NCBI GenBank assembly: GCA_947568835.1
Contig: OX387603.1
Location: forward strand, 28,854,651-28,918,650
Direction of reading: 5' to 3'
From: Protonemura montana
Lineage: Eukaryota; Arthropoda; Insecta; Plecoptera; Nemouridae
DNA length: 64,000 bases
Part shown: positions 2,010 to 46,400 of the stretch, one piece after another
Layout: the number at the start of each line of letters is the position of its first letter
Numbering within the stretch: position 1 is the first letter of the stretch
Position numbers and translations under genes: made by a program
Notes under the pieces: generated by a model
Databases searched by the model: none
Told to the model about the DNA's origin: nothing
What the model saw: only the letters and a program-made list of their open reading frames with translations

Positions 2010-2299
2010 CTGGCAGGTACGGCGCAGACCTCCCCGCAGGTCTCGCAGTAGAGAGCGTTGTCCATAGCAACGTGCTGCGCAACATGCGTTGCAAGATCAG
2101 CTGATGTACGCACGAAGACTGTGCAGGTATCGCAACGTAGTTCAACATGTTCTGCTTGAACGTGAGCGAGCAACGCAGCACGTGACGGGAATGACTCCAC
2201 GCAAAGCTCGCAGCCTGCCCCGCTCGAGTGCACGGAACGACCCGTTCTCTTCGCACAGAACGCAGAGTGGCGCTTCATTGTCACGGCCTTGCTGAACAC
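2010..2299 (-). CDS. ZAD gene exon 16 (fingers 17-19, start of 20)
   Basis: 96 codons plus 2 bases; acceptor tgttgcag|GTGTTC, donor GCCAG|GTGAGT. Completes finger 17 (VFSKAVTMKRH-SAF-C, a C2HC form), fingers 18 (CELC...HVQAEH) and 19 (CDTC...HVAQH), and opens finger 20 (YCETCGEVC). The remainder of finger 20 must be in an exon further left. Confidence 0.9.
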
Positions 2300-5200
2300 C
2301 TGCAACATTACCTTCCATTTGTTTCTCACATTCAAGACATAATACTGACACTAATCGGGAAGATGCCCCCTGTATTACACAGGGGGCAGGTATTACACAG
2401 GGGGCAGGTATTACCTTGTTGCACAGGGGGCAGGTATAACCTTGTTGCACAGGGGGCAGGTTTTACACAGGGGGCAGGTATAACCTTGTTGCACAGGGGG
2501 TAGGTATTACCTTGTTGCACAGGGGGCAGGTATTACCTTGTTGCACAGGGCGCAGGTATTACCTTGTTGCACAGGGGGCACGTATAACCTTGTTGCACAG
2601 GGGGCAGGTATTACCTTGTTGCACAGGGGGTAGGTATTACCTTGTTGCACAGGGGGCAGGTATTACCTTGTTGCACAGGGGGCAGGTATTACTTGTTGCA
2701 CAGGGGGCAGGTATTACCTTGTTGCACAGGGGGCAGGTATAACCTTGTTGCACAGGGGGCAGGTATAACCTTGTTGCACAGGGGGCAGGTATTACCTTGT
2801 TGCACAGGGGGCAGGTATTACCTTGTTGCACAGGGGGCAGGTATAACACAGGGGGCAGGTATTACCTTGTTGCACAGGGGGCAGGTATAACACAGGGGGC
2901 AGGTATTACCTTGTTGCACAGGGGGCAGGTATGCAGTTGCAGTCGATGGGTCTCGGGATCGGAACACGGATCGTCTGGAAACTCGGCTCGGTATTCGTCG
3001 CGATGCATCTTGCGCAGGTGTACCACCCGCTGCGCAGACGTCGCGCTGACCTGCAGGCAACAACGTATTGCATTGACAACTTGGATTTTCTAGTGAGTAG
3101 AAACAATTGACATCACAATGTTGTAATTGATATGTTTCTGTGAGTTATTATTATGAAGCTAAGACTGGTGTGTACCGGTTAATAACAGAGAATGTACAGG
3201 TGAGTTGCCGTGGGTTACCTTTAGACAGACAGCGCATGTGATGGCTGGGTTACCGCGGTGCTTCTTGTTTACATGTTTCCAGAGATGTGAGTTGCGACCG
3301 TAGAACTTGGTACAAAGATCGCAAGGATGCAGTGCATGTTGGATCCGACGATGTGCGGCCAGAAGCTCTCGGGTCGCGTACGCTGTCTGCGTTGGACACA
3401 GCTCGCACCTGGCAGACAAAACAAACCACAATAGAAACACATCAATAATACATCGTTTATTTTGTTTTAATAGTAATTCTGAAGATTGAATCGTAATGAT
3501 GATCAAGATTAATTTCACAGTTGTTCTGCAGTCAAAGTCAATCTTAACCGGGAAACTTGTTTACTGCTTTAACAAAAATTATTTCAACTGGGTTTTCAAT
3601 GCTAAGTGAAGAACAACTAAATTTCCCAACGTTTCATAACTTGTACCTGTTACTTTATCAAGGGTAAGAGCAGTAATCTTATGTTTTAATTTGTTCGGGA
3701 TTTTATTTCAGAAAATACAAAATACGTTAGTTTTTAAGTTATTGACCCTGATTATTTTATTTAGATGCATTTAGGAAGCTTGAACTTGGTAATTGTTATA
3801 ATTTTATGTGGTTTTTTTGTTATTGGAAAATTGTCAGGACTGCTCTTACCCTTCAAGAAGTAACAGGTACAAGTTACGAAACGTTGGGAAATTTAGTTGT
3901 TCTTTACTTAGCATTGAAAACCAAGTTGAAATAGTTTTTGTTAAAACTAGTGCTAAGTTTACATCAAGTAGACTTGAGTCTAAAAACAATATATGTAGAC
4001 TGCTGTTTCTGTTTTCTCTCCGTACCCATTTACAGGAGAGACCGACATCGAATCAGATTAAAATGTGAGCTTGTCTTACCAGAGAACATCTTCCTTGGAA
4101 GAAAGCAAAGCCTTCTTGATGTTGGGCGTGTTCAGGATGACTGCTTTCTTCACGACCACCTCCTGTACGGACACAAAACATGCCGATGCTGATAGCGTTT
4201 TGTTGATGGGATATAATTACCATTTAGAGAACCAACCTTTGGAGTCAAACACAATCATCCATCAGCTTTAACATTCTCTTCAATGTATAACAATCCCATG
4301 TTGCTGATCTGTCTTTTGCTCATCTAACAAATTATCACAAGCAATCATCACAACCAGGCCCAGGCACAAATAATAGCTTAGTTGACATTAAAACAGAGAA
4401 ATAACACTGGGAGTTACCAAGGTAACGCTACGGATCTTCCATATAATAACGGTACCAGTGTAAAGAGAGAGACAGACAGAATACTGACCTCAGGTAAGGG
4501 CACCGGGCAGTCAACGGCCGGGCGATGGATCTTCTCGTGTCTCGTGCACTTTGATTGGTTGGAATACTGACGAGCACAAACTCGGCAGTGGAAGCTGTTA
4601 GCGTCGAGCGTGTGAACTGTCTGGACGTGGTACACCATACTCTCAGTCTCACCAAACATCTGCAAGCATAGAGTCACCGTAGCAACAATCAACATAACCG
4701 CAGACATTGTACAAGTACCTGTACAAGTACTTGTACAAGTACCTGTACAAGTACCTGTATAAGTACCTGTACAAGTACCTGTACAAGTACCTGTACAAGT
4801 ACCTGTACAAGTACCTGTACAAGTACCTGTACAAGTACCTGTACAAGTACCTGTACAAGTACCTGTACAAGTACCTGTACAAGTACCTGTACAAGTACCT
4901 GTACAAGTACCTGTACAAGTACCTGTACAAGTACCTGTACAAGTACCTGTACAAGTACAAGTACCTGTACAAGTACCTGTACAAGTACCTGTACAGGTAC
5001 TAACACACAGCCTACTACAGCCTAACAGCCTACTAACAGCCTACTACAGGTACTTGTACAGGTACTTGTACAGGTACTTGTACAGGTACTTGTACAGGTA
5101 CTTGTACAGGTACTTGTACAGGTACTTGTACAGGTACTTGTACAGGTACTTGTACAGGTAGAGCACTTGAATTGTATCTTGGTTTGGTTGGACAGTTTTC

Positions 5201-8200
5201 CAGTCCAGCTTCACTTTCATTCAAAGGACTCAAGACACGTCCATTGTTGCATCAACAATCAACATAACCAACCGTACACAAAGTCAATGACCGTACACAA
5301 AGTCAATGACCGTACACAAAGTCAATGACCGTAGACAAAGTCACTGACCGTAGACAAAGTCACTGACCGTACAAGTAGTTTGGGAAAGCAATTAATTTTG
5401 TACTGACCTTGAGACATATACCGCAGACGTGAGCCAGCATATCGGCGTGTACGCCCTGTACGTGCTTCCAGTACTCCACTCGTGAGTTCCACAACTTCCC
5501 ACAGAGCTCGCATGTGTTGGGCAGGTTGCCCTGAAGCCTGTTGGCAAACAAACCAATCAGAACAAGCAGCCAATGTTTGACAAAGCACCGAGCTCCAAGA
5601 GTTGAAAGTTTGCAGCCAACGAAGAGGGAAATAATTAACTTTCAGTCGGGAGAAAGTAAATCGCAGCAAACAGCACCAACAAGATCACTGGGATCGCATC
5701 TATTTTAGATGTTGAGTTGTAAGACTTTGTTGGTTGAAAATCAAGGTTGGTAACACTGGAGGATCACTTGAAACCTCGGTTACTATGGTAACGTACCTAT
5801 GATGTTCACGGTGTTCTGTGCACATGCCCGGTGAAACAAAGATCTTCCCACAAGCCTCGTAGTCGCAGCGGATGGTTGACTCATCTGCGTGGAAACGATT
5901 CACGTGGCGCCAACGCTCGGACTTGGTCGGGTGCGAGCTGCGGCAGAACTCACAGAAGTAGTACGACGAGTACGTAGACGACTCATCCATCTTGTGCGCC
6001 CCCTTCTTGTGCTTCACCAGACAGTCTTCCGAGACAAACGATTTGTTGCATACCTGCCAACCAAACAACATGACACGCTCAGTGAGGTTTCATTTCAGAA
6101 CATGTTTCCCATAGAAATACCATTTTGAAAGAACCCTAAAGAATTTTTTTATTAATATGAACTCTATAACCATCTCAAAAATTGATGCCCAAACGGGGAC
6201 TCGAACCCCGATCTCAAAAAGTGTGTGCTGCACCTGTTATCACTCATTTCAAATAACCTGGATACCAGTCCCTGATATTGAGTTTCCTTTAAATGCTTGT
6301 GTTATTTTAAATATTTGTATCAAAAGTTACCATGGATTTCTTGGTTTTAACCACTTCTTATGGTTGAAAATTTGACATGAAAACATTAAAGATCAGCTGA
6401 CTGGATCCTATGTTCTATCCAGGTTATTTGAGATCAGCTGACTGGATCCTATGCTCTATCCAGGTTATTTGAGATCAGCTGACTGGATCCTATGCTCTAT
6501 CCAGGTTATTTGAGATCAGCTGGCTGGATCCTTTGTTCTATCCAGGTTATTTGAGATCAGCTGGCTGGATCCTATGCTCTATCCAGGTTATTTGAGATCA
6601 GCTGGCTGGATCCTATGCTCTATCCAGGTTATTTGAGATCAGCTGGCTGGATCCTATGCTCTATCCAGGTTATTTGAGATCAGCTGGCAGGATCCTATGC
6701 TCTATCCTGGTTATTTAAGATCAGCTGGCTGGATCCTATGTTCTATCCAGGTTATTTGAGATCAGCTGTCTGGATCCTATGTTCTATCCAGGTTATTTGA
6801 GATGAGCTGGCTGGATGCTCTACTCTATGCAGGTTATTTGAGATGAGCTGGCTGGATGCTATGCTCTATGCAGGTTCTATACCAACCTCGCAAGGGTGTA
6901 GGAAGTCATCTGCAGATGATAATGCAGCTCCCTTGCACATGGCTTGATGCCTCTCTACCCCTGCTGCACTATCAAATGCAGCCTGGCATGAAGGGCAGTA
7001 GAATGTATCGGTGGCTACATCCACCAAGGGTTCAAACGGATTGAATGGTTCAGCGAGCATGTGAGAGCCGTCGAAGTGTTCTGACGTAACGTGCCGCATC
7101 AGCTGTTGTTCTGAGTCGAACGCCTGAAACCCGAGGATGTTTTATTACAGTCATGTTTTGTTATGTAACAATACCAGCAGTTGTTCAACAATAAACCCAA
7201 GCTTGAGCTATTTTCTAGTTCCAATCAACATTATTAATAAAGATCTGCTATAAAACATCAAAGCAAACAATATTGTTTTATGTAAATAGGATGTCAAGAA
7301 GATCGACATTTGCTGCAAGTTGAAGGAGGAGTGAACTTTGTGGTGAATTTGTCAAAGTTAAGCAGAACTTTTTTAATAATAAGTAAGGCATCTCGCCAAA
7401 TCAAGTAAAATCCCAGGATTTTAACAAATTTCTCGACATGTGCACCACATGACGCCATCTCTCTTTCCTTCCTAACAGGCCCTAAGATGTAGTCGCCAAA
7501 GCTGAAGAAACGTCAATTTCTTACGTCTACTTTAGGATCGGAAGTCAATCTCAACAGAGCAAGTTTGTCACTCACTATACATTCACCCACGGCTCTGAAT
7601 CACTTCAACAAAACAATCATCAGTTATATTTTCCACAAAAGTGCAGATAAAAACAGAACTTGACATTTATTGATGAGATATGAGCAGTGAAAACTGGAGA
7701 GGAGCGGCAAGAATTATGAAAACAAAGTGAATGCATTATTACTGGATTGTACCTGTTGGCAAACATTGCAGGTGACATGTTTGTGAACATTGCGTCGATG
7801 TTTTGTCAGAGTCTCAGCGCTCTCGAACGCCTTGAAGCAAAGTGAACACGGATGGTAAGCTTCAGATGCGTCGGCAAACTCCTGCGGCAAGAAGTCGAGG
7901 TCATCGTCCAAATCTGCATCTGCTCGGTGCTCTGAGTTTGCAAGCACCAGCGAGTCAAGGTCAACACCCGACGGCAAGGAGTGGATCCGTAGATGATTAC
8001 ACAGCTTCTTGCGGCTACAGGAACAAAACATAATACACAATTACAAGGCCCATACAGAGAATAGCTTGCCAAGAGGCTAGATATTGTGAATAGGATGCCA
8101 AGAGGCTGGACATTGTGAATAGGGTGCCAAGAGGCTGGATATTGTGAATAGGATGCGAAGAGGCTGGATATTGTGAATAGGGTGGCAAGAGGCTGGATAT

Positions 8201-11200
8201 TGTGAATAGGGTGCCAAGAGGCTGGATATTGTGAATAGGGTGCCAAGAGGCTGGGTATTGTGAATAGGATGCCAAGAGGCTGGATATTGTGAATAGGATG
8301 GCAAGAGGCTGGATATTGTGAATAGGATGCCAAGAGGCTGGATATTGTGAATAGGATGCCAAGAGACTGGATATTGTGAATAGGGTGGCAAGAGGCTGGA
8401 TATTGTGAATAGGATGCCAAGAGACTGGATATTGTGAATAGGATGCCAAGAGACTGGATATTGTGAATAGGGTGGCAAGAGGCTGGATATTGTGAATAGG
8501 GTGGCAAGAGGCTGGATATTGTGAATAGGGTGGCAAGAGGCTGGATATTGTGAATAGGGTGCCAAGAGGCTGGATATTGTGAATAGGATGCCAAGAGACT
8601 GGATATTGTGAATAGGATGCCAAGAGACTGGATATTGTGAATAGGGTGGCAAGAGGCTGGATATTGTGAATAGGGTGGCAAGAGGCTGGATATTGTGAAT
8701 AGGGTGGCAAGAGGCTGGATATTGTTATAAGAGTGAATCAGGGCCCACCTGTTGTCCTGCCTGCCGCAGATCTGACAGGAGTAGCGCTTGTCGAAGCTGT
8801 GTCCGGCGGGAAAGTGTTTGCGCCAATGAGACATGAGAGCCTCGTTGCTTGTGCTAAGTTGGAGGCAGACACCGCACGCCAGCGGAGCTTCCTGCTTGTG
8901 TGAGTAGAGCAGGTGCAGCCACAGCGAGGCTCGGTCGTTGAATGTTCGTGAACACACCTAGGACATGATCGATCGATTGATTGATTTGTGTTGTTTAACA
9001 ACGCACTGTTTTGACAACGGGCCATGCGGCACTGGTCTAATGGCATCAGTCAATGAGAGGATGATGATGAACCTAACCTAGCCTAGAAGGGAGGAGGGGA
9101 AACAACAAAAGCACCAAGGGGACCACCGGCTTAACATCCCTTCCGAAGGACGGTACAACGCGAACAACAGGATTCCTTCACAAATCCATTCTGTCGAGAG
9201 GTTGATAAGCAAGGCGAGTGAAGTTGCTGTACTAACTTTCATCCCTCCAACCTCTCTCCCAAACAGAACTGGTCATGTGTATGATGGCCACCCATCCAAT
9301 ACCTGACCCAGTGCAGTGTTGCTTAACTTTCATCCCTCCAACCTCTCTCCCAAACAGAACTGGTCATGTGTATGATGGTCACCCATCCAATACCTGACCC
9401 AGTGCAGTGTTGCTTAACTTTCATCCCTCCAACCTCTCTCCCAAACAGAACTGGTCATGTGTATGATGGTCACCCATCCAATACCTGAACCAGCGCAGTG
9501 TTGCTCAACTTCGGTGATGTAACGAGAACCGGTGTTTCCAACACGCCAACCGTTTTGGTTAATACTATGATTTATCACTTGCTCCTTACAATTATAACAT
9601 TGTTGAAAAACAGCAAGATAATTAATAAATGATAGACCATCATTAATTTGATGTCAACAAGATTCGAAGAATGGTCCATGAAAGTTTGCAGTGTAAGTAA
9701 AACTGTACCTGGGATCCAACGAGCAAAGAGGTCATAGGAGTTAATGGACCAAGACTGGGTTGTGTTGATGAAATCTTATTTAAATTGCAAACGCTTGCAA
9801 TGCGCGGGGTATTTTATCATTAACACTAAAATCGTCTCAAAAATGTATGCCCAAACAGGGATTTCAACCTCGATCTCCACCTGTCGTGGGTGTTGCTCTT
9901 TGAGCTACTTGTACACTGGCTTTTTGAGACGATTTTAGTGTATTTGATGAGAATGACGGATCTCAATCAAGAATAACGGAGCTCAATTGGTTAGCGCAAC
10001 ACCTGCGACAGGTGGAGATCGGGGTTTGGGTGTCCGTTTGGGTATCAATTTTTGAGACGATTAAAGTGTTAATGATGAAATACTGGGTTGTGTTACCTCG
10101 CAGTAATGGGTCTGCCCTGGATCCTCGTCAAGTTGCTCTTCATCGCGAGCTGCAGGGTTCTGATTGGTTGGGACTGCTGCCGCCTGCATCGTTGGCAGCG
10201 CCAGCTCAGACCCGTGGTTGGCGTTGAAATGCCGCGACAGAGCATTCTTTAGCACAAACGACTTGTCACAGTGCATACATGCAAACGGCTTGGCACCGTC
10301 CACTTCTCCTGGAATTCATACTTTGTTGAGAGCAAAGTCAAGAGACAAAACTTTACAACAACCAAGAAAAGAAGGAAGGTCTCACCACGTGCAAGTTTCC
10401 GTGGCTTGGCGGATTTCCGTCGGCTAGCTCCGCCCTCTTCTTCTGACTGTCCGAGATGGTCTTCAGCATCGGAGGAGCTTGAGTGACGGCGTTTGTCTAC
10501 TGACTTCAGCAGTGATTCTGCACAAAGAAATGAAACCAATTAAGACATGACAGCTTCATGGCATTTGTTGAAACGTTAAGAGAAAACTATCTCATTTCAC
10601 GTCATCTAGACAGTTGTTTCGTGGGAGGTAGGTACGTCCAATATATCTGTGTATTTAGGCAACTGTCATATCCCTTTAGATGGAATGTAGGGTGATTATA
10701 ATGCTTTACCTTTAAGCAGACTCTGGTGAGGTTGCCTCTTAGTTCCGTTGCTTCTTCTGGCTTGCACTACTTTATCTGTTAAGTCAACTACTTTGATCAC
10801 ATCAGCTTCTATCTTGACAAGAGAAACGGCAGGCTTTTGCTTTGATGCCGAAGCTGAAGCAAGTGCTCGAGCTAGCACTTGGCTGGCACTTGGCTTCTTG
10901 CTTACCTGTAACTGCTACAAATCATACAACATAATGTGGACATTCAATGCACAAAGCGCCCACTAGTTTTATTTATGTTATAAAAATCAATGGTGGTTTT
11001 GTTAATTTATTTTTGGTTACACAAACAACATTTTAAAAATGCTATGTGTTGTGCTGATAGATTGTTCAGTGAATTATACAATCTCGTACCTGAGGTTCTA
11101 GTTTTGGCATAGAATCTTGAGCTGCTGAATCTGACAAGACTTCCTGCTTGACTGAAACCTGCTGGTACAAAATGACAATCTTAATTGGCAATCCCACCAA

Positions 11201-22400: not shown

Positions 22401-25400
22401 GGCTTGCTACACAAAGCAGAGTCTGCCAAATGTTTCCAACCAACAAAACACGTGGAAAAGCAACAGGCTTTTTATTATTATCAACAGTATAAGCGTCTCA
22501 AAACTTGATGCCCAAACGCGGACTCGAACCCCGATCTCCACCTGTCGCAGGTGTTGCTGTAACCAAATGAGCTACTTGGACCCCGATCTCCACCTGTCGC
22601 AGGTGTTGCTGTAACCAATTGAGCTACTTGGACCCCGATCTCCACCTGTCGCAGGTGTTGCTGTAACCAATTGAGCTACTTGGACCCCGATCTCCACCTA
22701 TCGCGGGTGTTGCTGTAACCAATTGAGCTACTTGAACCCCGATCTCCACCTGTCGCAGATGTTGCTGTAACCAATTGAGCTACTTGGACCCCGATCTCCA
22801 CCTGTCGCGGGTGTTGCTCTAACCAATTGAGCTACTTGGACCCCGATCTCCACCTGTCGCGGGTGTTGCTCTAACCAATTGAGCTACTTGGACCCCGATC
22901 TCCACCTGTCGCGGGTGTTGCTCTAACCAATTGAGCTACTTGGACCCCGATCTCCACCTGTCGCAGGTGTTGCTGTAACCAATTGAGATACTTGGACCCC
23001 GATCTCCACCTGTCGCAGGTGTTGCTGTAACCAATTGAGCTACTTGGACCCCGATCTCCACCTGTCGCGGGTGTTGCTCTAACCAATTGAGCTACTTGGA
23101 CCCCGATCTCCAACTGTCGCGGGTGTTGCTCTAACCAATTGAGCTACTTGGACCCCGATCTCCACCTGTCACGGGTGTTGCTCCAACTAATTGAGCTACT
23201 TGGACCCCGATCTCAACCTGTCGCGGGTGTTGCTCTAACCAATTGAGCTACTTGGACCCCGATCTCCACCTGTCGCGGGTGTTGCTCTAACCAATTGAGC
23301 TACTTGGACCCCGATCTCCACCTGTCGCAGGTGTTGCTGTAACCAATTGAGCTACTTGGACCCCGATCTCCACCTGTCGCAGGTGTTGCTCTAACCAATT
23401 GAGCTACTTGGACCCCGATCTCCACCTGTCGCGGGTGTTGCTCTAACCAATTGAGCTACTTGGACCCCGATCTCCACCTGTCGCAGGTGTTGCTCTAACC
23501 AATTGAGCTACTTGGACCCCGATCTCCACCTGTCGCAGGTGTTGCTCTAACCAATTGAGCTACTTGGACCCCGATCTCCACCTGTCGCGGGTGTTGCTCT
23601 AACCAATTGAGCTACTTGGGCCGTGATCTCCACCTGTCGCGGGTGTTGCTCTAACCAATTGAGCTACTTGGGCCGTGATCTCCACCTGTCACAGGTGTTG
23701 CCCTAACCAATTAAATAACTTGGACACTGGCTTTTTGAGACGATTTTAGTGTATTTGATGAGAATGACGGATAGTAAAATACCCCACGCATTGCAAGCGT
23801 TTGCAATTTAAATCAAATTTCATCAAAAAGCAACGTCCTCTTTGAGAGATCTCAAAATCGGAGACTTTCAAGATGGCGGCCTTAGCTTCCTAATCAGGTT
23901 ATGGTTATGGTGCAGGTTATGAGAGATGCAGTAGTCAGTAAAACTGTGCCTTGTGGAAGATGCTCTTGTCAAATGCTCGGTCCACTTACCACGAAGCGGT
24001 TCACCTTGGTACGCGGCTGTTTGTCTGCCGCGCGGTCCACCTCGTGTGACATGGACTCAAACCGGGCTCGCAGAGATCGCGTTGAGTCCAGGCTGGGCGT
24101 GTCTCCGTCCAGCGCAGTGGGCGTGGCTACATCGGTCGACGCCTTCTCCCGCTCGATCTCACGTTCCTCCCATCGTTCGAACTTCGCACGCAGGGACTTG
24201 GCGCGCACCGCCGCGCTCTGGGCCTGTCAGGTTCAAGGTCAGGTTAGTCTCACAATATTGATACGTGAATATCAATCGTTGAGGTAAACATTGATGGAGA
24301 TTTTTTGAGTATGAAAAGTCTCAAAAGCGAGTTAACCTACGAGAGATATCGAAATTAAATTTCATACGACAGTGGCTCCACATAACGTGATGTTACAGTA
24401 CTCTGCATTTTTGTCGGTAAGGTAGTCATTTGGCGGCCATCTTTCACGCAGAGACTGTAACATTGACGTTGTTTCTCTACCTTGAACCTGCTCACAACGG
24501 TTTAACATTAACGTTCTGTCTCTACCTAGAACCTGCACACTCAACGGTTTAACATTAACGTTCTGTCTCTACCTAGAACCTGCACACTCAACAGTTTAAC
24601 ATTAACGTTCTGTCTCTACCTAGAACCTGCACACTCAACGGTTTAACATTAACGTTCTGTCTCTACCTAGAACCTACACACTCAACGGTTTAACATTAAC
24701 GTTCTGTCTCTACCTAGAACCTGCACACTCAACGGTTTAACATTAACGTTCTGTCTCTACCTATAACCTGCACACTTAACAGTTTAACATCAACATTCTG
24801 TCTCTACCTAGAACCTGCACACTCAACGGTTTAACATTAACGTTCTGTCTCTACCTATAACCTGCACACTCAACGGTTTAACATTAACGTTCTGTCTCTA
24901 CCTAGAACCTGCACTCAACGGTTTAACATTAACGTTCTGTCTCTACCTAGAACCTGCACTCAACGGTTTAACATTAACGTTCTGTCTCTACCTAGAACCT
25001 GCACACTCAACGGTTTAACATTAACGTTCTGTCTCTACCTAGAACCTGCACACTCAACGGTTTAACATGAACGTTCTGTCTCTACCTAGAACCTGCACAC
25101 TCAACGGTTTAACATTAACGTTCTGTCTCTACCTAGAACCTGCACACTCAACGGTTTAACATGAACGTTCTGTGTCTACCTAGAACCTGCACACTCAACG
25201 GTTTAACATTAGCGTTCTATCTCTACCTAGAACCTGCACACTCAAGGGTTTAACATTAACGTTCTGTCTCTACCTAGAACCTGCACACTCAACGGTTTAA
25301 CATTAACGTTCTGTCTCTACCTAGAACCTGCACACTCAACGGTTTAACATTAACGTTCTGTCTCTACCTAGAACCTGCATACTCAACGGTTTAACATTGA

Positions 25401-31400: not shown

Positions 31401-34400
31401 TGTGAAACTCTTGTCAAGCGGGTGACGTGACTTACCGTGTTAACTCTGTTGCGGAAACTCTCGTCCCTGCCGAGTGGTTTGCCCCCCAAGGTCGGCATCG
31501 AGGCCGTCTTGGCTGCGCTGGCGTCCAACTCAAGGAACAGCGAGCGAGACTTCTTAGAGTAGCCGGCGTCGACCAGATCCTCATCCAACAACAAACTCTT
31601 CGGCTGACCTTCTCCTTCCTCCTCATCGTTTACCTGGTTGGCAATAATACAGACACTCCTGCTATCAGAGGATCACAAAACTAGATTAAAACAACTTCTT
31701 CACTCCAAGTTTCACACCAGCAAAGATGCGGGCAGCAAAAGATTAAAGCTAATATCTGATAGAGTTGCCAATCTGAGACACATCAACATCTGAGCTATCT
31801 GAAAAAAGTATGACCCACGTTAGAATACGCAGCAGCACCAGGCAGGTGTCATGAACGTTCCTGATCCAGTCCCTGGTCTCTCATGTCCGGGCCCATCATG
31901 CGACAGCAGGGTTACGAACCTGTCCACGCTCAAAACGTTCCTTGATGCATCGAGCTCGATCTCCTCCGACCTCAACGTCACGTTTCCCAGGCGATGTGGC
32001 CGTAGATTCAGAAACAGCTGCTTGATAGGCTTCCTTCATCTTGCCCTGGTGGCCCTAAAACACACCATCATAACATGGCTAGAGTCCAGCAATACCCTTT
32101 CATGCTTACATAGCGTTCAATCTTCATGTCAAATCTTCATGTCAATCAAAAATTGAAATGCTTTTTGGAGATCTGTCATTCTCATCAAAATGCACTAATA
32201 TCTTATCAAAGATAAAGTGTCCAAGTAGCTCAATTGGTTAGAGCAACACCCGCGACAGGTGGAGATTGGGGTCCAAGTAGCTCAATTGGTTAGAGCAACA
32301 CCAGCGACAGGTGGAGATCGGGGTCCAAGTAGCTTAATTGGTTAGAGCTACACCCGTGACAGGTGGAGATCGGGGTCCAAGTAGCTCAATTGGTTAGAGC
32401 AACACCTGCGACAGGTGGAGATCGGGGTCCAAGTAGCTCAATTGGTTAGAGCAACACCCGCGACAGGTGGAGATCGGGGTCCAAGTAGCTCAATTGGTTA
32501 GAGCAACACCTGCGACAGGTGGAGATCGGGGTCCAAGTAGCTCAATTGGTTAGAGCAACACCCGCGACAGGTGGAGATCGGGGTCCAAGTAGCTCAATTG
32601 TTTAGAGCAACACCCGCGACAGGTGGAGATTGGGGTCCAAGTAGCTCAATTGGTTAGAGCAACACCCGCGACAGGTGGAGATCGGGGTCCAAGTAGCTCA
32701 ATTGGTTAGAACAACACCTGCGACAGGTGGATATCGGGGTCCAAGTAGCTCAATTGGTTAGAGCAACACCCGCGACAGGAAAAGATTGGTATTCGAGTCC
32801 CCGTTTGGGCATCAATTTTTGAGAGATTAAAAGTATTGCTAATAATAAAAAGAATCAAGTTTCTTATCTAACCTGGAAGAGTCGTGAACGAATGGTGGAG
32901 ATCTCCAGCTTTCGTTCTTCCCTACGTTCCTCCTTGCTCTTGGTGGTCCCGGCTTCCCAGCGACCCTTCACATCTGACATCTGCGCAAACGTCACGGGTC
33001 TCTCCTTATGCTTCCTGTTGGCACGCACCATGCTGCCCTCCTCCTGGTCATCCTCTTCCTCCTCCGAGCTGGACTCATCTGATGGAGGGGATCCGTTCAA
33101 CGCAGAGTCGGCCACGCCCACGTCACCGCCTCCGCCGGCCTGGAACCTGATTGACCGAGAGACAGAATTACATCGCTGTCGTGCTCTAAACATCGGGCAA
33201 ATATGGTCGATGTTTTGTCAGGGTCCGGTATTTTAACAAGTTTGATGATTGCCAAGCTGAATTGTGCATCTTTTATCATAAAAAATAATTCCAGAAATTC
33301 TTTGTTTTTTTTTCTTAGTTAAATGTTGAATTGTGACAAAGTCTTGAATCGTCCTGGTAAAGAGAAGACAAGACGCCAGCGTGAACTTGTTGCATCTGCT
33401 ATTCAAACAACTGCAACGCAGTGAAGCAAACTTAATTCATTGATACATATTATTGGATAAATTCCAGGGTTAATCAGCATAACTTAACGTGATAACATTA
33501 TCTAGTTACCCAGGAGCTGGCTTGGGAGGTAACATTCCTTGTACATCTTTTGTTTATAGGGTTAAACATATCGGTGTAGACAAAGTGATGAGTAAGTTTT
33601 GTTGAAGTGCCGGTCCATGTGCTGGTCCATGTGCTGGTCCATGTGTCAGTCCATGTGCTGGTCCATGTGCCGGTCCATGTGTCGGTCCATGTGCCGGTCC
33701 ATGTGTCGGTCCATGTGCTGGTCCATGTGTCAGTCCATGTGCTGGTCCATGTGTCAGTCCATGTGCTGGTCCATGTGCTGGTCCATGTGCTGGTCCATGT
33801 GCTGGTCCATGTGCTGGTCCATGTGCTGGTCCATGTGCTGGTCCATGTGCTGGTCCATGTGCTGGTCCATGTGCTGGTCCATGTGCTGGTCCATGTGTCA
33901 GTCCATGTGTCAGTCCATGTGCTGGTCCATGTGCTGGTCCATGTGCTGGTCCATGTGCTGGTCCATGTGCTGGTCCATGTGCTGGTCCATGTGCTGGTCC
34001 ATGTGCTGGTCCATGTGCTGGTCCATGTGCTGGTCCATGTGCCGGTCCATGTGTCAGTCCATGTGCCGGTCCATGTGCCGGTCCATGTGCCGGTCCATGT
34101 GCTGGTCCATGTGTCAGTCCATGTGCTGGTCCATGTGTCAGTCCATGTGTTGGTCCATGTGCTGGTCCATGTGTCAGTCCATGTGCTGGTCCATGTGTCG
34201 GTCCATGTGTCAGTCCATGTGCCGGTCCATGTGTCAGTCCATGTGCTGGTCCATGTGTCAGTCCATGTGCCGGTCCATGTGCCGGTCCATGTGCTGGTCC
34301 ATGTGTCAGTCCATGTGCTGGTCCATGTCTCAGTCCATGTGTTGGTCCATGTGCTGGTCCATGTGCTGGTCCATGTGCTGGTCCATGTGCTGGTCCATGT

Positions 34401-37400
34401 GCTGGTCCATGTGCTGGTCCATGTGTCGGTCCATGTGCTGGTCCATGTGTCGGTCCATGTGCTGGTCCATGTGTCAGTCCATGTGCTGGTCCATGTGCTG
34501 GTCCATGTGTCGGTCCATGTGTCAGTCCATGTGTCAGTCCATGTGCTGGTCCATGTGCTGGTCCATGTGCTGGTCCATGTGCCGGTCCATGTGTTGGTCC
34601 ATGTGCTGGTCCATGTGTCAGTCCATGTGCTGGTCCATGTGTCAGTCCATGTGCCGGTCCATGTGCCGGTCCATGTGCTGGTCCATGTGCTGGTCCATGT
34701 GTCAGTCCATGTGCTGGTCCATGTGTCAGTCCATGTGTTGGTCCATGTGTCGGTCCATGTGCTGGTCCATGTGCTGGTCCATGTGTCAGTCCATGTGCTG
34801 GTCCATGTGCTGGTCCATGTGCTGGTCCATGTGCCGGTCCATGTGCTGGTCCATGTGTCAGTCCATGTGCTGGTCCATGTGCTGGTCCATGTGCTGGTCC
34901 ATGTGTCAGTCCATGTGTCAGTCCATGTGCTGGTCCATGTGCTGGTCCATGTGCTGGTCCATGTGCTGGTCCATGTGCTGGTCCATGTGCTGGTCCATGT
35001 GTCGGTCCATGTGCTGGTCCATGTGCTGGTCCATGTGTCAGTCCATGTGCTGGTCCATGTGTCAGTCCATGTGCTGGTCCATGTGCTGGTCCATGTGTCG
35101 GTCCATGTGCTGGTCCATGTGCTGGTCCATGTGCTGGTCCATGTGTCAGTCCATGTGCTGGTCCATGTGCTGGTCAATGTGCTGGTCCATGTGTCAGTCC
35201 ATGTGTCGGTCCATGTGTCGGTCCATGTGCCGGTCCATGTGTCAGTCCATGTGCCGGTCCATGTGTCAGTCCATGTGCTGGTCCATGTGTCGGTCCATGT
35301 GCTGGTCCATGTGTCGGTCCATGTGCTGGTCCATGTGTCAGTCCATGTGCTGGTCCATGTGTCAGTCCATGTGTTGGTCCATGTGCTGGTCCATGTGCTG
35401 GTCCATGTGCTGGTCCATGTGCTGGTCCATGTGCTGGTCCATGTGCCGGTCCATGTGCTGGTCCATGTGCTGGTCCATGTGCTGGTCCATGTGCTGGTCC
35501 ATGTGCCGGTCCATGTGCTGGTCCATGTGCTGGTCCATGTGTCGGTCCATGTGTCGGTCCATGTGCTGGTCCATGTGCTGGTCCATGTGCTGGTCCATGT
35601 GCTGGTCCATGTGCTGGTCCATGTGCTGGTCCATGTGCTGGTCCATGTGCTGGTCCATGTGTCGGTCCATGTGCCGGTCCATGTGCTGGTCCATGTGCTG
35701 GTCCATGTGCTGGTCCATGTGCTGGTCCATGTGCTGGTCCATGTGCTGGTCCATGTGCTGGTCCATGTGTTGGTCCATGTGCTGGTCCATGTGCTGGTCC
35801 ATGTGTCAGTCCATGTGCTGGTCCATGTGCTGGTCCATGTGTTGGTTCATGTGCCGGTCCATGTGCTGGTCCATGTGCTGGTCCATGTGTCAGTCCATGT
35901 GCTGGTCCATGTGCTGGTCCATGTGCTGGTCCATGTGCTGGTCCATGTGTCAGTCCATGTGTCAGTCCATGTGTTGGTCCATGTGCTGGTCCATGTGCTG
36001 GTCCATGTGTCAGTCCATGTGTCAGTCCATGTGCTGGTCCATGTGCTGGTCCATGTGCTGGTCCATGTGCTGGTCCATGTGTCAGTCCATGTGTCAGTCC
36101 ATGTGCTGGTCCATGTGCTGGTCCATGTGCCGGTCCATGTGCTGGTCCATGTGCTGGTCCATGTGCCGGTCCATGTGCTGGTCCATGTGTTGGTCCATGT
36201 GCTGGTCCATGTGCTGGTCCATGTGCCGGTCCATGTGTCAGTCCATGTGCTGGTCCATGTGCCGGTCCATGTGCCGGTCCATGTGCCGGTCCATGTGTCA
36301 GTCCATGTGTTGGTCCATGTGCTGGTCCATGTGCTGGTCCATGTGCTGGTCCATGTGCTGGTCCATGTGTCAGTCCATGTGTCAGTCCATGTGCCGGTCC
36401 ATGTGCTGGTCCATGTGCTGGTCCATGTGCTGGTCCATGTGCTGGTCCATGTGCTGGTCCATGTGTCAGTCCATGTGTCAGTCCATGTGCCGGTCCATGT
36501 GCTGGTCCATGTGCTGGTCCATGTGCTGGTCCATGTGCTGGTCCATGTGTCGGTCCATGTGTCGGTCCATGTGCTGGTCCATGTGCTGGTCCATGTGCTG
36601 GTCCATGTGCTGGTCCATGTGCCGGTCCATGTGCTGGTCCATGTGCTGGTCCATGTGCTGGTCCATGTGCTGGTCCATGTGTCAGTCCATGTGCTGGTCC
36701 ATGTGCCGGTCCATGTGCCGGTCCATGTGCCGGTCCATGTGCTGGTCCATGTGCTGGTCCATGTGCTGGTCCATGTGTTGGTCCATGTGCTGGTCCATGT
36801 GTCGGTCCATGTGTCAGTCCATGTGTCAGTCCATGTGCCGGTCCATGTGCTGGTCCATGTGCTGGTCCATGTGCTGGTCCATGTGTCGGTCCATGTGCCG
36901 GTCCATGTGTCAGTCCATGTGCTGGTCCATGTGCTGGTCCATGTGCTGGTCCATGTGTCAGTCCATGTGCCGGTCCATGTGCTGGTCCATGTGCTGGTCC
37001 ATGTGCTGGTCCATGTGCTGGTCCATGTGCTGGTCCATGTGCCGGTCCATGTGTCGGTCCATGTGCCGGTCCATGTGTCGGTCCATGTGCTGGTCCATGT
37101 GCTGGTCCATGTGCTGGTCCATGTGCTGGTCCATGTGTCGGTCCATGTGCTGGTCCATGTGCTGGTCCATGTGCCGGTCCATGTGCTGGTCCATGTGCTG
37201 GTCCATGTGCTGGTCCATGTGCTGGTCCATGTGCTGGTCCATGTGCTGGTCCATGTGCTGGTCCATGTGCTGGTCCATGTGTCAGTCCATGTGTCAGTCC
37301 ATGTGCTGGTCCATGTGTCAGTCCATGTGCTGGTCCATGTGCTGGTCCATGTGCTGGTCCATGTGTCAGTCCATGTGTCAGTCCATGTGCTGGTCCATGT

Positions 37401-40400
37401 GTCAGTCCATGTGTTGGTCCATGTGTCGGTCCATGTGTCGGTCCATGTGTCAGTCCATGTGTCAGTCCATGTGCTGGTCCATGTGTCGGTCCATGTGCTG
37501 GTCCATGTGTCAGTCCATGTGTCAGTCCATGTGCTGGTCCATGTGTCAGTCCATGTGTCAGTCCATGTGTCAGTCCATGTGCTGGTCCATGTGTCGGTCC
37601 ATGTGCTGGTCCATGTGCTGGTCCATGTGCTGGTCCATGTGCTGGTCCATGTGCTGGTCCATGTGCTGGTCCATGTGTCAGTCCATGTGTCAGTCCATGT
37701 GCCGGTCCATGTGCTGGTCCATGTGCCGGTCCATGTGCCGGTCCATGTGCCGGTCCATGTGCTGGTCCATGTGCTGGTCCATGTGCTGGTCCATGTGTCG
37801 GTCCATGTGCTGGTCCATGTGTCAGTCCATGTGCTGGTCCATGTGCTGGTCCATGTGCTGGTCCATGTGTCGGTCCATGTGCTGGTCCATGTGCCGGTCC
37901 ATGTGTCGGTCCATGTGCTGGTCCATGTGCTGGTCCATGTGCTGGTCCATGTGCTGGTCCATGTGCTGGTCCATGTGCTGGTCCATGTGCTGGTCCATGT
38001 GCTGGTCCATGTGCTGGTCCATGTGCTGGTCCATGTGTCAGTCCATGTGCTGGTCCATGTGCTGGTCCATGTGCTGGTCCATGTGTCGGTCCATGTGCTG
38101 GTCCATGTGCTGGTCCATGTGTCGGTCCATGTGCTGGTCCATGTGCTGGTCCATGTGCTGGTCCATGTGCTGGTCCATGTGTCAGTCCATGTGTCAGTCC
38201 ATGTGCTGGTCCATGTGTCAGTCCATGTGTCAGTCCATGTGCCGGTCCATGTGCTGGTCCATGTGTCGGTCCATGTGCCGGTCCATGTGCCGGTCCATGT
38301 GCTGGTCCATGTGCTGGTCCATGTGCCGGTCCATGTGCTGGTCCATGTGTCAGTCCATGTGCTGGTCCATGTGCTGGTCCATGTGTCAGTCCATGTGCTG
38401 GTCCATGTGTCGGTCCATGTGTCGGTCCATGTGTCGGTCCATGTGTCAGTCCATGTGCCGGTCCATGTGCTGGTCCATGTGCTGGTCCATGTGCTGGTCC
38501 ATGTGCTGGTCCATGTGTCGGTCCATGTGCTGGTCCATGTGCTGGTCCATGTGCTGGTCCATGTGCCGGTCCATGTGCTGGTCCATGTGCCGGTCCATGT
38601 GCTGGTCCATGTGCCGGTGCTACGTACCTAGCCAGTTTGCTGAGGATGCTCGGTGACCTCTTCACCGTTACGGCGACGCCTCCTACCGAGGGGGCTTCCT
38701 CCGATGCCTTCTCAAACGCTTGGAATCGTGACTTGACGTTGAGTTGTGACAGTTCCTCCAGTCCAAGATCAGGCTTGTCAGATCCTGCAAGACAAGCCAA
38801 GAGTTACTTCATGTTTCCAACACTGGGACTGGTGACAAGGTAGCCAAGAGTTACTTCAACTTTCCAACACTGGGACTGGTGACAAGGTAGCCAAGAGTTG
38901 CTTCAACTTTCCAACACTGGGACTCGTGACAAGGTAGCCAAGAGTTGCTTCAACTTTCCAACACTGGGACTGGTGACAAGGTAGCCAAGAGTTGCTTCAT
39001 GAGAAACATTACAGGTTAGTTCCAAAGAGACGGCAGGAAAACAAGTCGTAGAATGAAATGGTTTTTAACTCAAGTCTTAAATTCATGACAATGGGAAGTA
39101 TGAAGTTTGAGCAAAGAGACTTTGAGAGAAGATCAAACTCATTTTATGTGCTTCTTTTGTTATTGGAAAATTGCCAGGACTGCTTTAACCCTTGATAAAG
39201 TAACAGGTACAAGTTACGAAACATTGTTCTTCACTTAGCATTCAAAACCCAGTTGAAATAATTGTAGAATGATCATACACAAGCTTCAAGCAAATGTTGA
39301 AACTAATGTACGTTTCCTTTCTGCACAAATTTTGTATTGACGTGAGTGAAGTGAAATGATTAACATAAAAATTGTGTCAACTGTCAAAAAAACTGGATAA
39401 ATGCATGCATATTAGACAGAGAAACAACGACTGGTTTCACCTGATGCCAAGAAGTTATTGAATTTAGCTAAAGTCAAGCTTCAAACGCGTCATAAAACAG
39501 ACATATTACTAACAAATTACAATTCACCATTAAATTACAAAGAACAGAAGCAAAGTTCAATTAACTGATTGGAAGGCGGTGAAATCTGGCCAAACGACAG
39601 AGAGATGACGAGCATAAGCAGCAACGGGATTAAAGGCACTAATCATTGAGTCTCAACGACCACTTGTTAAACTTGCCACAACGGATTAGACAACCAATAA
39701 ACCTATGACACTTAAAACCCATGACAACACGACCCTATAAACTGCTGCCAACTGTGGGATCATTGTTAGATGAACCAACAAATATATCAACTTATGGCTA
39801 ATTTATTAATGGTGCTATGAATCAACTCTTCTCAAACTGACAATGACGGGAATTTATCATTTTTGATTAATTTTTGGTGTCGATTGAATATCGCTGCACT
39901 TTCAACGAACGTGTCATAGTTTTAGTAACTACCAAGACTTTATAAACTAACCATCGACAACTTTATGCTGTCAAGCAATAATCACTGTTAAACTTCACAA
40001 ACTTCACATCGAGTTATGGTCGGTCAAGCAATAATCACTGTTAAACTTCACATCGAGTTATGGTCGGTCAAGCAATAATCACTGTTAAACTTCACATCGA
40101 GTTATGGTCCGTCAAGCAACAAAATTAAGCTGTTAAGTCAAGACAAACCACAAAGTCTATTCTTTAACTTGGTAAGAATGGTAAATATCATGGACATCCC
40201 TTTTACTCCAAGTTGACAGAATAGCCTAGCGTAGAGTAAACCAATAGTGCATCCAGTGCAACATTGGTTTTACCATACTCTTAGCTGTAGGTCAAGTAAT
40301 TAACTCCCAGAAACAAATAACCCTGCATGTTTAGCTGCAGTTTAACTTGTTCCACTCGGGTGTTAAGAAAGTCCCGAGGCCGGCCATGTTATCGCAACAT

Positions 40401-43400
40401 TCTGACTCAAGAAAGAGGCCTATAAACGGACAAATCGGGGACAGTGATACCTCGGACCACCTCTGGTGGCAGCTCTGTCGGCTGATTCTCACTGATGATG
40501 GGACCAGCCTTGCGGCGTCGTACTGAAACCATCACCCACATCGTGTAACAGTCATCTTCTGGCCTGACATTCTATTACTAGGATACGATATCTCCGCCAA
40601 GTCAAGATTATATCAACCCAACAATACACATTAAAAGTCTTCCCACAATTGATATCTAGCAACAAGCACAGCGACACTATCACCGGCCACCTTGAGTTTC
40701 AAATCTGGTGCTAAACAAAGTAGGCTTTATCTCAGCTGTCACTTGTTCATTTGAGGTTATATTTAAGTATCTTACATGTTTATAGTAAGATTGCTACAAA
40801 ATTCCATGTGTAATTTTATTGGTTGACTAATTTCATGAAGTAAAAGGCAGAGAGTAACGGTTTTTGACCATCTGTAGTAAGCACAGAACAGAAAGAAGTT
40901 GGAGTTTTTCAAGAGTGCTAAATGCTATGCTTGTGTGCTATGCACTTTGTGTTGATTGTGTGCAGTCCCATATGATGACCAAGTTTTAAATCCCCATGAG
41001 CTCTTGCTATGTCAATTGTGTGCAGTCCCAAATGATAACCAAGTTATAAGATCCTTGTGTGCTATGCTTGTGCTTAATGCTATGTCAATTGTGTGCAGTC
41101 CCATATGATAACCAAGTTTTTAAATCCCGATAAGCTTTTGCTATGTCAATTGTGTGCAGTCCCATAAGATAACCAAGTTTTAAGATCCTTGTGTGCTATG
41201 CTTGTGCTTATTGCTATGTCAATTGTGTGCAGTCCCATATGATAACCAAGTTTTAAGATCCTTGTGCGCTATGCTTGTGCTTATTGCTATGTCAATTGTG
41301 TGCAGTCCCATATGATAACCAAGTTTTAAGATCCTTGTGCGCTATGCTTGTGCTTATTGCTATGTCAATTGTGTGCAGTCCCATATGATAACCAAGTTTT
41401 AAGATCCTTGTGTGCTATGCTTGTGCTTATTGCTATGTCAATTGTGTGCAGTCCCATATGATAACCAAGTTTTTAAATCCCCATAAGCTCTTGCTATGTC
41501 AATTGTGTGTAGACCTTAAGATATATTTCAATCCAGCAAGTAAATAAGGTACACAGTTCCAATGTCTTGTTTCTTAACACTCGTTGTTTGATTTTGGAGC
41601 TGCAAGTCTTGTTGGAAACCGAGCAAGCAAAAGTAGTAAGAAGCCACGCCTTACCAGGAGCTTCGTCTTCCACGACTGCCTTTGGCTTGAAAAGCTCCTT
41701 GAAGTGAGGTTTGCAGTAAACGACGCCCTCGTGGCTGCTGTAAATGTCCACGCTGTCGGGGCAAAGATGGAACACCAGGTTAGTGAAAAGATACAGAATG
41801 CTATTCGCTAGCTTGGTCAGCCGTTGCTTTATACCCCATTCAATCACTCAAATTTTCTCCATAAATTTCATTAAGTATTCAAAACCTTTTTGCTTCAAAA
41901 AACAAAAAAATACTATTCAAATGCTTGAAGCTACGGATCTGAAATAACCTGGATAGAGCATAGGATCCAGCCAGCTGATCTCAAATAACCTGAATAGAGG
42001 ATAGGATCCTGCCAGCTTATCTCAAATAACCTGAATAGAGCATAGGATCCTGCCAGCTCATCTCAAATAACCTGGATAGAGCATAGGATCCAGCCAGCTG
42101 ATCTCAAATAACCTGGATAGAGTATTGGATCCAGCCAGCTGGTCTCAAATAACCTGGATAGAGCAAAGGATCCAGCCAGCTGATCTCAATTGATGACAGG
42201 CAATCCATTATTTCCAAGTTTTTTTTTATTATTTCAATGCTAATTTTATAGTTTTTCTCAAACTATGGATGAAAACAGCTAAGATAGCCGGGCACTTTCA
42301 GAGAACTCAACATGAGGGACTCTCAAGATGGCGGCCTCGGCTTCAAAGTGTCTCAATGGTTATATGAGAAGATTGTTTGTGTAACTCACGTGAGCTGTTT
42401 GTTACAATCATGACAACGGAAGCAGTTTTTGTGCCAGACGCTACGCTCGGCCTTGACTTGCTCCATCTGGAACACTTGTTTTCCACACGACCGACAAGTG
42501 CTGCTGCCAACGTCACCACTGCTGGCCTGCAAATAAATCACACACACCACGGTCAAGACCAGCACGATTGGAGATTACATAACAAGCAAGTTGTTGAGTA
42601 GTTGTTGAAATATTGATAGAGTTGATTAATGACTGCACTAGAGTAAACAAACTCCCCGGTTTTGTCAACCCAATGTTTCCCAACGTAAGGTCCTCGTACC
42701 CCCCCGGCTACGCAAAGAGTTCAGTTGGGCACGTGATGCACTTTACTTGAGAACTTATCTTAACTTCTAAACACATTTCACAAATATTTCTATTGAATTC
42801 TAAGCCACGGGCAACAACATTAAATCAATTTCTATGTTTCCATACATTTTTTGTCTCAATGTCTCATTATTTCACTGACTGATTTTAGACTAGGTCTCAA
42901 TGTCTCATTATTTCACTGACTGATTTTAGACTAGGTCTCAATGTCTCATTATTTCACTGACTGATTTTAGACTAGGTCTCAATGTCTCATTATTTCACTG
43001 ACTGATTTTAGACTAGGTCTCAATGTCTCATTATTTCACTGACTGATTTTAGACTAGGTCTCAATGTCTCATTATTTCACTGACTGATTTTAGACTAGGT
43101 CTCAATGTCTCATTATTTCACTGACTGATTTTAGACTAGGTCTCAATGTCTCATTATTTCACTGACTGATTTTAGACTAGGTCTCAATGTCTCATTATTT
43201 CACTGACTGATTTTAGACTAGGTCTCAATGTCTCATTATTTCACTGACTGATTTTAGACTAGGTCTCAATGTCTCATTATTTCACTGACTGATTTTAGAC
43301 TAGGTCTCAATGTCTCATTATTTCACTGACTGATTTTAGACTAGGTCTCAATGTCTCATTATTTCACTGACTGATTTTAGACTAGGTCTCAATGTCTCAT

Positions 43401-46400
43401 TATTTCACTGACTGATTTTAGACTAGGTCTCAATGTCTCATTATTTCACTGACTGATTTTAGACTAGGTCTCAATGTCTCATTATTTCACTGACTGACTG
43501 ACTGACTGATCTTGAAGTGGTCGTTGAATTGAAAGAAAGTATTACATCTCTACATCACAAGACCAGTGCTAAAATGTGTATTTTTTTCCCTCTACGTGTT
43601 GTCGTAATTTCCTTGCTTCGTGTTTGCAAAATGCCATTGAATGAGTAAATCACATGAGATTTAATTTGGACTTGTGTCTCACCTGTGAGAACTGCTTCTG
43701 TGCCTTGGAAGCGTCTCCCGATCGAACGTGTAGTACCGTCTTCTTCGACAGAGCGTCGAACTTGGAGAAACTTGATTTCTGCAACCAAATGCATCAGCAT
43801 CCACGTCAACGACAAACAATCGTAGGACCACGTATTTACCTTAACCTAACATTCATTCACATTTTGCTGTCATAGGAAGAAACATACTTTTCAACCACTA
43901 GAAACAAAACCAGACTTGATTTAAATTAAGACATTGCGAAACAAGCGATGGTGGATCTGTCTGGTGCCGCGTGCTGGTGTCGTCATTGAGTCTTCTCTTA
44001 CATTTCAAACAAAGTGAATATCATTGTGCAGCAAATCCATGGAAAGATCGACAAAAAGCCTCAACTTTGTGAATTCCAAGCTGGCAAAAAGCTAACTGTA
44101 GCAAGGTGAAATCTCAATCAATGGAATGAACGCTGCAGGAAATGAGTGACATTTGTGTGAGTTTGTTTACCTCTGGAGACGTTGGTGCCGGCGGAGAGAT
44201 TGGGTGCAAGTCCTTGTGTTGTACCACCGTGCAATAACTCGCTGCCTGGTGTAGCATGCGTTCAAGAAAAGCCACGTGCAGACATGCATGTTAAAACACC
44301 AACCAATGGAACAAGTTTTAGTGGAGGAAACAGAGAAAACTATCAAAAGTTGAAGTAAAACAGCAAATCTTTGCCTCGCGGCATTTCGAATGAAGAAACA
44401 GCGATTAAAGGCATAATTTGATCAGACTTGTGAGCATCCAACGAGCAAGCAGTTGACAGAGAAGTTCTGGTAATTAATGTTGAGATTAGAGACTAGAGCT
44501 GGTTCACAATAACTCTTCTTTACTAAAGTAAAAAGCCTCTTGCCATCCTATTCACAATACCCAGCCTCTTGCCATCCTATTCACAATACCCATCCTCTTG
44601 CCATCCTATTCACAATATCCAGCCTCTTGGCACCCTATTCACAATATCCAGCCTCTTGTCACCCTATTCACAATATCCAGCCTCTTGCCACCCTATTCAC
44701 AATATCCAGCCTCTTGCCACCCTATTCACAATATCCAGCCTCTTGCCACCCTATTCACAATATCCGGCCTCTTGGCATCCTATTCACAATATCCAGCCTC
44801 TTGCCACCCTATTCACAATATCCAGCCTCTTAGCACCCTATTCACAATATCCAGCCTCTTGTCACCCTATTCACAATATCCAGCCTCTTGGCATCCTATT
44901 CACAATATCCAGCCTCTTGGCACCCTATTCACAATATCCAGCCTCTTGGCATCCTATTCACAATATCCAGCCTCTTGGCACCCTATTCACAATACCCAGC
45001 CTCTTGCCACCCTATTCACAACATCCAGCCTCTTGGCATCCTATTCACAATATCCAGCCTCTTGCCACCCTATTCACAATATCCAGCCTCTTGGCACCCT
45101 ATTCACAATATCCAGCCTTTTGCCACCCTATTCACAATATCCAGTCTCTTGGCATCCTATTCACAATATCCAGCCTCTTGGCACCCTATTCGCATTGTAT
45201 ATTTTCAAAACATGATAAACAAACCATTTATACCACTAAAGTGTGAACTAATACCGTGAAAGTATTTGATAAAGTTATTAAATCTGTGCAAGGGAAATGT
45301 TCCCAGATGAAGCCCCAGTGACAGGAGGCAGTGAAAACGTAGCAAACTATCCAAGATTGTGAACCGTCTTTAGGGCAGAAAGCCGAGTTCCCTCCACCGT
45401 GGTAAGAACACGTGTTAAACCTCCGTACGTACCAACGCCATGACGGAAATGCCCGTGTGAATCGGCGGCTTCTCTCGATCCAACGAGCCGTTGGAACGGA
45501 ATGCGGCGGGGAACGAACGTAGGTCACCGAGGGACCGCGCTCTCTGCTCCCAACCAGCGTTAGTTAAAACTCATGCAATCGCAACATCGTTACCTCAGAA
45601 CTCCAAGCACTACTAGCATTGCAGGGAAATATTCTGTCCCTTAACCTAACTTCTGCAAACATAACCAAGGCAATGACACAAGTCCAAGCACTGATATGTC
45701 CATACATGCAGCTAACAGACATTCCAATTGTCTCAAGAATAACTTCCAAGTTTAAAGCTAACTCCTAACTCCTAAATATGAGCAAGAAGTTACTACAATT
45801 ATTTCCATTCTGTTAGCTGTAGATTGACATTTGAAGCCTTGCGCTGGGCAGAGATAGCCGTTAGTAGGGTTGCATATTGATAGAGCAAGCTTGGCTACCT
45901 TGGCTACCTGATAATCAAATCCTCCGGCAAGATTAGTAAGATACCAATTTGTTAAGTTTGATATGTTATTACAAACACAGCAATTGCAAACAACAGTTCT
46001 TAGAAAAACTTGGTAGAATCTGCAATGCAACCGACTTTCAATAAGACTTAATTAACAATAAGCATAAAGCTTTAAAATCCAGTTGAAATAGTTTTTGTCA
46101 AGGACAGAACGAGAGTAAATACTTGATTCTACTAAATTCTTTAAGAATTGTCAAGATTAGTAAGCTGTTAGTGACATGTTAGGTATGGTAAGCTACTCAC
46201 CCAAGCAATGTTGTTGCCGCCTCGTCCTCGTAAAAGCTTGAGCTCGGAGAGAGTGGGAGGTTTCCTTTCTGTTTCCAGCGACTTGCATGCGTTGGAGTCA
46301 CAGTCCTTGGTCATGCAAAAACTTGACAATCTCTAGACTATGCCACGCCATGCACTCTAACACACAAAGTCTAACTTCACGAATATCTCCTTCAATCGCA

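Follow-up and report, generated by a model that had tools for sequence, protein, structure and literature searches.

A minisatellite that copies the 5' splice site of a zinc-finger exon in the stonefly Protonemura montana

In a 64,000-nucleotide stretch of the P. montana genome (GenBank assembly GCA_947568835.1, contig OX387603.1, positions 28,854,651 to 28,918,650; hereafter the window, whose numbering is used below), an exon of a zinc-finger gene is followed directly by tandem copies of its own end, including its 5' splice site. The question raised by this locus is which of these donors is used, and whether the others could contribute to the protein.

Architecture of the minisatellite at the exon end

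The exon in question (2910..3050, minus strand) starts at base 3050 after a CAG|GTCAGC acceptor and has an open frame over its 141 nt. It was listed as exon 15 in the preliminary description, which had it ending in HTCPLCNK followed by GTAATA; both were found at 2910/2909 on the minus strand. The authentic donor AAG|GTAATA (2904..2909, minus strand) is in phase 0. A 26-bp minisatellite with the unit ATACCTGCCCCCTGTGCAACAAG|GTA extends approximately over 2372..2932 (minus strand), including the last 23 exon bases, as determined by TRF, the repeat rows and a count of cores. ATACCTGCCCCCTGTGCAACAAG is identical to these 23 bases, and 12 exact copies of it follow within the 540 bases beyond the exon, whereas ~1e-11 would be expected by chance when equal base frequencies are assumed. 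Because the 23 exon bases are repeated exactly, each 26-bp unit consists of 23 exonic bases plus GTA, and the donor GT at 2909 sits within the first repeat unit. The proposal that the exon end and its 5' splice site were tandemly amplified into the intron is correct.

The CCTGTG core was counted 23 times with the exon's own copy; successive cores are spaced at 26 bp in 17 intervals, at 25 bp in one and at 18 bp in four, and the terminal core completes the count. The splice signal is kept in 17 of the 22 cores beyond the exon, and AAG|GT is absent from five, namely the terminal core and the four 18-bp units, which are 8 bases shorter and have lost the donor. The 26-bp array is thus confirmed, with copied donors numbering 17 and not 20 as estimated. 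A 44-bp higher-order unit (26+18) is present at 2803..2932 (minus strand) in three copies that are 100% alike by TRF and by letter-by-letter comparison, the latter taking in two copies completely and the third over 42 bases. The first of these copies contains the exon end. Since the exon end lies inside an identical block, recent sequence exchanges probably included it. The mixture of 26-, 25- and 18-bp units together with the 44-bp block suggests past exchange, as read from one assembly.

Distally, the array terminates in an inverted unit fragment, ACAGGGGGCA (2364..2373, minus strand, seen in the sequence), which pairs with array sequence in the predicted fold of the intron. When a 34-base piece of the unit was searched against the genome with up to 3 mismatches, it matched this locus only, in 17 places. 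Apart from the locus itself, a genome search with the array matched a single site (C15:1654058-1654386, with 70% similarity and E 3.3e-20). This may or may not be a relative of the present array: it is an array of a 24-bp unit (CCCCTGTGCAAGGTGTGTACCTAT x 13.5) with no finger in front of it by eye, and a unit-against-unit comparison of the two gave no match at E 1e-6.

Copied donors, reading frame and the probable productive junction

The exon downstream of the array-bearing intron (2010..2299, minus strand) starts with VFSKAVTMKRHSAFC at 2299, ends in AVPAR, and has the acceptor TTGCAG|GTG and the donor CAG|GTGAGT. The first exons of the gene encode a ZAD domain (zf-AD, E 1.1e-15, over two exons joined by eye). 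Joining 2909 to 2299 restores a zf-C2H2 domain (whole-protein E 1.9e-9, three stretches), the best stretch of which, 40-58, crosses the exon join at 47/48; by eye, the junction reads C-x2-C-x3-F-x5-M-x2-H-x3-C. No zinc-finger match was obtained in the read-through protein at E up to 1. That the finger is restored across the join argues most strongly for 2909->2299 as the productive junction, and we infer the choice of donor from it. A paralogue search with the exon pair returned 17 matches besides the locus itself, with 25-34% identity and mostly in long open frames; these matches give no date for the intron.

The 17 copied donors (2409..2865, minus strand) were taken from the site list and evaluated by U1 duplex energies. 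Their GTs lie, on the minus strand, at 2865, 2821, 2795, 2769, 2743, 2717, 2692, 2666, 2640, 2614, 2588, 2562, 2536, 2510, 2484, 2440 and 2414. A separate donor-run comparison again recovered 16 of the 17 together with the authentic site. Eleven copies read AAG|GTAATA (-6.6 kcal/mol), five AAG|GTTATA (-4.1 kcal/mol) and one CAA|GTAATA (-3.0 kcal/mol). The eleven match the authentic donor, which also pairs with U1 at -6.6 kcal/mol, over nine bases, and local strength therefore cannot explain a preference for the authentic site. For comparison, ten other exon-end donors of this gene gave U1 energies of -5.6 to -12.2, three being weaker and seven stronger than the authentic donor; these ten were placed by eye from 12 exon-end tails, two of which had no GT, with some doubt about where the CQICGRQ exon ends. 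A donor-like site outside the array, AAG|GTAATG (-6.8), lies at 2311, 12 bases upstream of the acceptor.

Reading the exon frame into the array gives the 15 residues VIPAPCVIPAPCATR and then an in-frame TAA 15 codons past the junction (2862..2864, minus strand; ORF 2862..3089). The copied donor at 2865 (+44) precedes this TAA but shifts the frame, and the other 16 lie behind it, so that none of the 17 copied donors preserves the protein. The preliminary description had held that every third donor is in frame. This is correct by length, for 6 of the 17, but all six lie beyond the TAA at 2864-2862. It had also described three-unit runs as stop-free in many places; among the exact 78-base runs bounded by AAG|GTWATA, two of seven are stop-free and the other five hold TAA. 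The stop-free runs are real, but in a frame other than the one in which the exon enters the array. Its model, that in-frame array donors add blocks of 26 residues with further CPLCNK knuckles, draws on these two runs and six donors, and on an array in the CCT4 gene of the same genome (see below) whose five extra copied donors all keep the frame and meet no stop. We consider this model barely credible at the present locus, since the TAA is reached before any in-frame copied donor in this allele, in which 0/17 preserve the frame, and an insert between CPLC and the F/H part of the finger would break the finger. Enumeration of every GT from the authentic donor to the acceptor (n = 53, including the authentic one) left a sole in-frame, stop-free site among the 52 others, TGT|GTTATA at +18 (2891). 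It is weak (U1 -1.3 vs -6.6 kcal/mol) and would put six residues inside the finger. The exon-like part of some distal units carries non-synonymous changes, among them Cys to Tyr (two units) and Pro to Ala (one unit), so that the copies give no sign of upkeep as protein.

Probable origin and consequences of the array

We favor, with a probability of roughly 0.8, the explanation that the array is a 'mirage' minisatellite that arose from tandem duplication across the exon-intron boundary and that productive splicing still uses the exon-proximal donor. The array would have been born by slippage or unequal exchange across this boundary and would have grown outward into the intron, leaving the original exon end intact. 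Duplications on the donor side would be harmless to the protein only if they grow outward and the first donor stays in use. The near-identical downstream donors would then be mostly ignored, and mRNA made from an array donor, with its premature stop or frameshift, would probably be degraded. The array itself would not code for protein and would lower output modestly at most. Splicing is expected to join mostly 2909 to 2299 and to leave a small fraction of unproductive mRNA, the likeliest side effect being that the next exon is skipped. Experiments with duplicated donors often show preference for the intron-proximal site, which counts against use of the exon-proximal donor. Our search of open-license papers found none on the choice between duplicated identical donors.

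The structure of the array is of an already known type, the donor-copying minisatellite. In amphioxus, mirages are described in Adh3, the globins BflGb6 and BflGb9, and troponin C, with similar imperfect repeats in PGBD5, and regular splicing of the mirage genes is reported (PMC3087553, PMC3902484). Like these mirages, the present array spans the exon-intron boundary, has a splice signal in many of its units and leaves the authentic exon intact. The two differ in that the amphioxus cluster boundaries are described as left out of homogenization (PMC3087553), whereas the most uniform units here are exon-proximal and the 44-bp block includes the exon end.

The other known case is a human 25-bp VNTR in intron 18 of ABCA7, which begins at the exon 18 donor (PMC5954066). 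Both repeats lie directly at the exon and start with or include its donor GT, and in both the donor of the next unit shifts the frame and leads to a premature stop. The ABCA7 array starts at the GT, whereas the present unit is exonic in 23 of its 26 bases; ABCA7 is backed by allele and isoform data, whereas the present array is known from its sequence. In ABCA7, alternative transcripts together exceed the canonical one in 90% of BA10 cortex cases, and expression falls and next-exon skipping rises with VNTR length (PMC5954066). These effects indicate that the ABCA7 array is not harmless, and we counted them against the harmless reading of the present one.

The same effects favor the idea that the array acts as a length-dependent brake, in which more donors would yield more stop-containing or mis-spliced transcripts and the amount of zinc-finger protein would be set by the length of the allele. 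By frame, all 17 copied donors would give unproductive mRNA, and the predicted fold of the array-bearing intron is tighter than that of any of 20 shuffled versions (z -2.05). Yet in ABCA7, retention of one unit accounts for 2 +/- 1% of isoforms and is unaffected by VNTR size, so use of the next-unit donor is unchanged with length (PMC5954066), and we regard such a brake as unlikely, though less so than the other alternatives. Very improbable, in our estimate, is an intron gain underway, in which a new intron would take its two ends from duplicates of an AGGT segment. The unit does contain AAG|GT, tandem copies with AG|GT are shared with intron gain by AGGT duplication (PMC4974935), and the amphioxus mirages (PMC3087553) and a potato RdRp gene (PMC4974935) are used to argue for such routes. 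In that process both splice sites would come from unit copies, whereas TTGCAG|GTGTTC, the acceptor at 2299, falls beyond the array and does not copy its unit, and the zf-C2H2 match crosses exactly the 2909->2299 junction. Beyond lancelets and human ABCA7, we found no donor-copying minisatellites in a few searches of open-license literature, which is weak evidence of their absence. The present array and the one in CCT4 (see below) together suggest that boundary minisatellites extend beyond those two cases.

Genomic setting and a second case in CCT4

Unlike the amphioxus mirages, the array sits in a genome whose mitochondrial gene order matches the pancrustacean ground pattern. The mitochondrial contig (C34, 15,885 bp) reads I-Q-M-nad2-W-C-Y-cox1-L(taa)-cox2-K-D-atp6-cox3-G-nad3, followed by A-R-N-S-E-F-nad5-H-nad4-T-P-nad6-cob-S-nad1-L-rRNA-V; tRNAs were placed by ARAGORN (23 rows, from which Leu(aag) inside cox1 was dropped as spurious) and protein genes by eye. 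A COX1 match on a large nuclear contig (G000:C4:5760925-5762262) scores equal to that of C34 and represents either mitochondrial DNA that was recently copied into the nucleus or a join made in assembly. The vertebrate-type telomere repeat TTAGGG x4 occurs in three places, all within contig C2.

The zinc-finger array is located on the 29.8-Mb contig C2, ~0.95 Mb short of its end. Minisatellites with units of at least 12 bp and 2.5 or more copies make up 42% of the window. When the window's arrays were scanned for exon-donor arrays by comparing sites one TRF period apart, four rows were obtained, none with a recognized exon; the scan missed the present array itself, so that its negative outcome carries little weight. 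Across the genome, a 29-bp family of the window matches 3,674 times with at most 2 mismatches. Among the matches listed (the first 100 of the 3,674 in contig order, all exact), those on C1 (n = 40) fall either short of 0.29 Mb or beyond 27.8 of 33.1 Mb, those on C2 (n = 56) below 3.4 or above 26.3 of 29.8 Mb, and those on C3 (n = 4) at 0.3-0.4 Mb.

Several minisatellite monomers recur as distant separate arrays, several of them inverted and some inside introns: 8059-8725 and 44534-45191; 6390-6876 and 41936-42189; 9233-9511 and 56661-57241; 22528-23712 and 32219-32779; and 40955-41480 with L002:1-672 and L045:3632-4981. Such monomers may be carried by mobile elements. The 52-bp unit of 22528-23712 and 32219-32779 looks similar to a tRNA 5' half (AGCTCAATTGGTTAGAGC, an A-box-like stretch) and is perhaps a tandemly repeated SINE head; ARAGORN found no tRNA genes in the window. 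At 4708-5160, upstream of an exon near 4660-4490, a 12-bp array of the nearly self-complementary TGTACAAGTACC is broken by a stretch of ACAGCCTACTA and runs in the opposite orientation thereafter. Another 12-bp unit, GTGCTGGTCCAT, is repeated ~418 times across 5 kb at 33607-38618.

TRF was also run on 12 regions holding 53 matches to the Cpn60_TCP1 chaperonin family, which correspond roughly to exons. Eight regions had no such minisatellites, among them L049 on C1, 1.6 Mb from the contig end; two had a single short array (63 and 70 bp), and two, less than 0.7 Mb from the ends of C2, had kilobases of arrays. An array across an exon end was present at one of the 53 matches, the sample from which the frequency of such arrays is taken. 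This array belongs to the CCT delta gene (CCT4; best match E 3.4e-95), 0.37 Mb from the C2 start, so that both donor-copying arrays lie less than 1 Mb from a contig end. The intron opens with a 42-bp unit x 5.6, 100% alike (L045 5196-5431, C2 ~368.7 kb), which begins CCCAG|GTACAA and copies the donor CAG|GTACAA. Two further arrays, L045 2909-3306 and L048 3089-5520, stop ~5 to 25 bases short of an exon.

The HAQ|GDK junction formed by the first CCT4 donor aligned without gaps to solved CCT delta chains in two alignments, and such an array can therefore occupy a conserved gene. Each of the five in-frame, stop-free extra donors would add 14 residues, VQTPCIISTATWTQ, and CCT4 is thus a better place than the zinc-finger array to test the idea of in-frame addition. 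Just past the array, at 5446, lies a frame-shifting donor-like CAG|GTTAGT that is stronger (-9.3 vs -7.1). That donor-copying arrays recur in genes at minisatellite-rich contig ends, and that units which are multiples of three and stop-free, as in CCT4, give graded, length-dependent isoforms, is a proposal we hold to be improbable.

The CCT4 array offers the same test of donor choice as the zinc-finger array, with an in-frame read-out. In the zinc-finger gene, 17 donor copies, eleven of them identical over nine bases, stand beside one real site and constitute a natural test of 5' splice site choice. Because little but position can differ between the real donor and copies equal to it, what is tested there is how the spliceosome chooses among equal sites.
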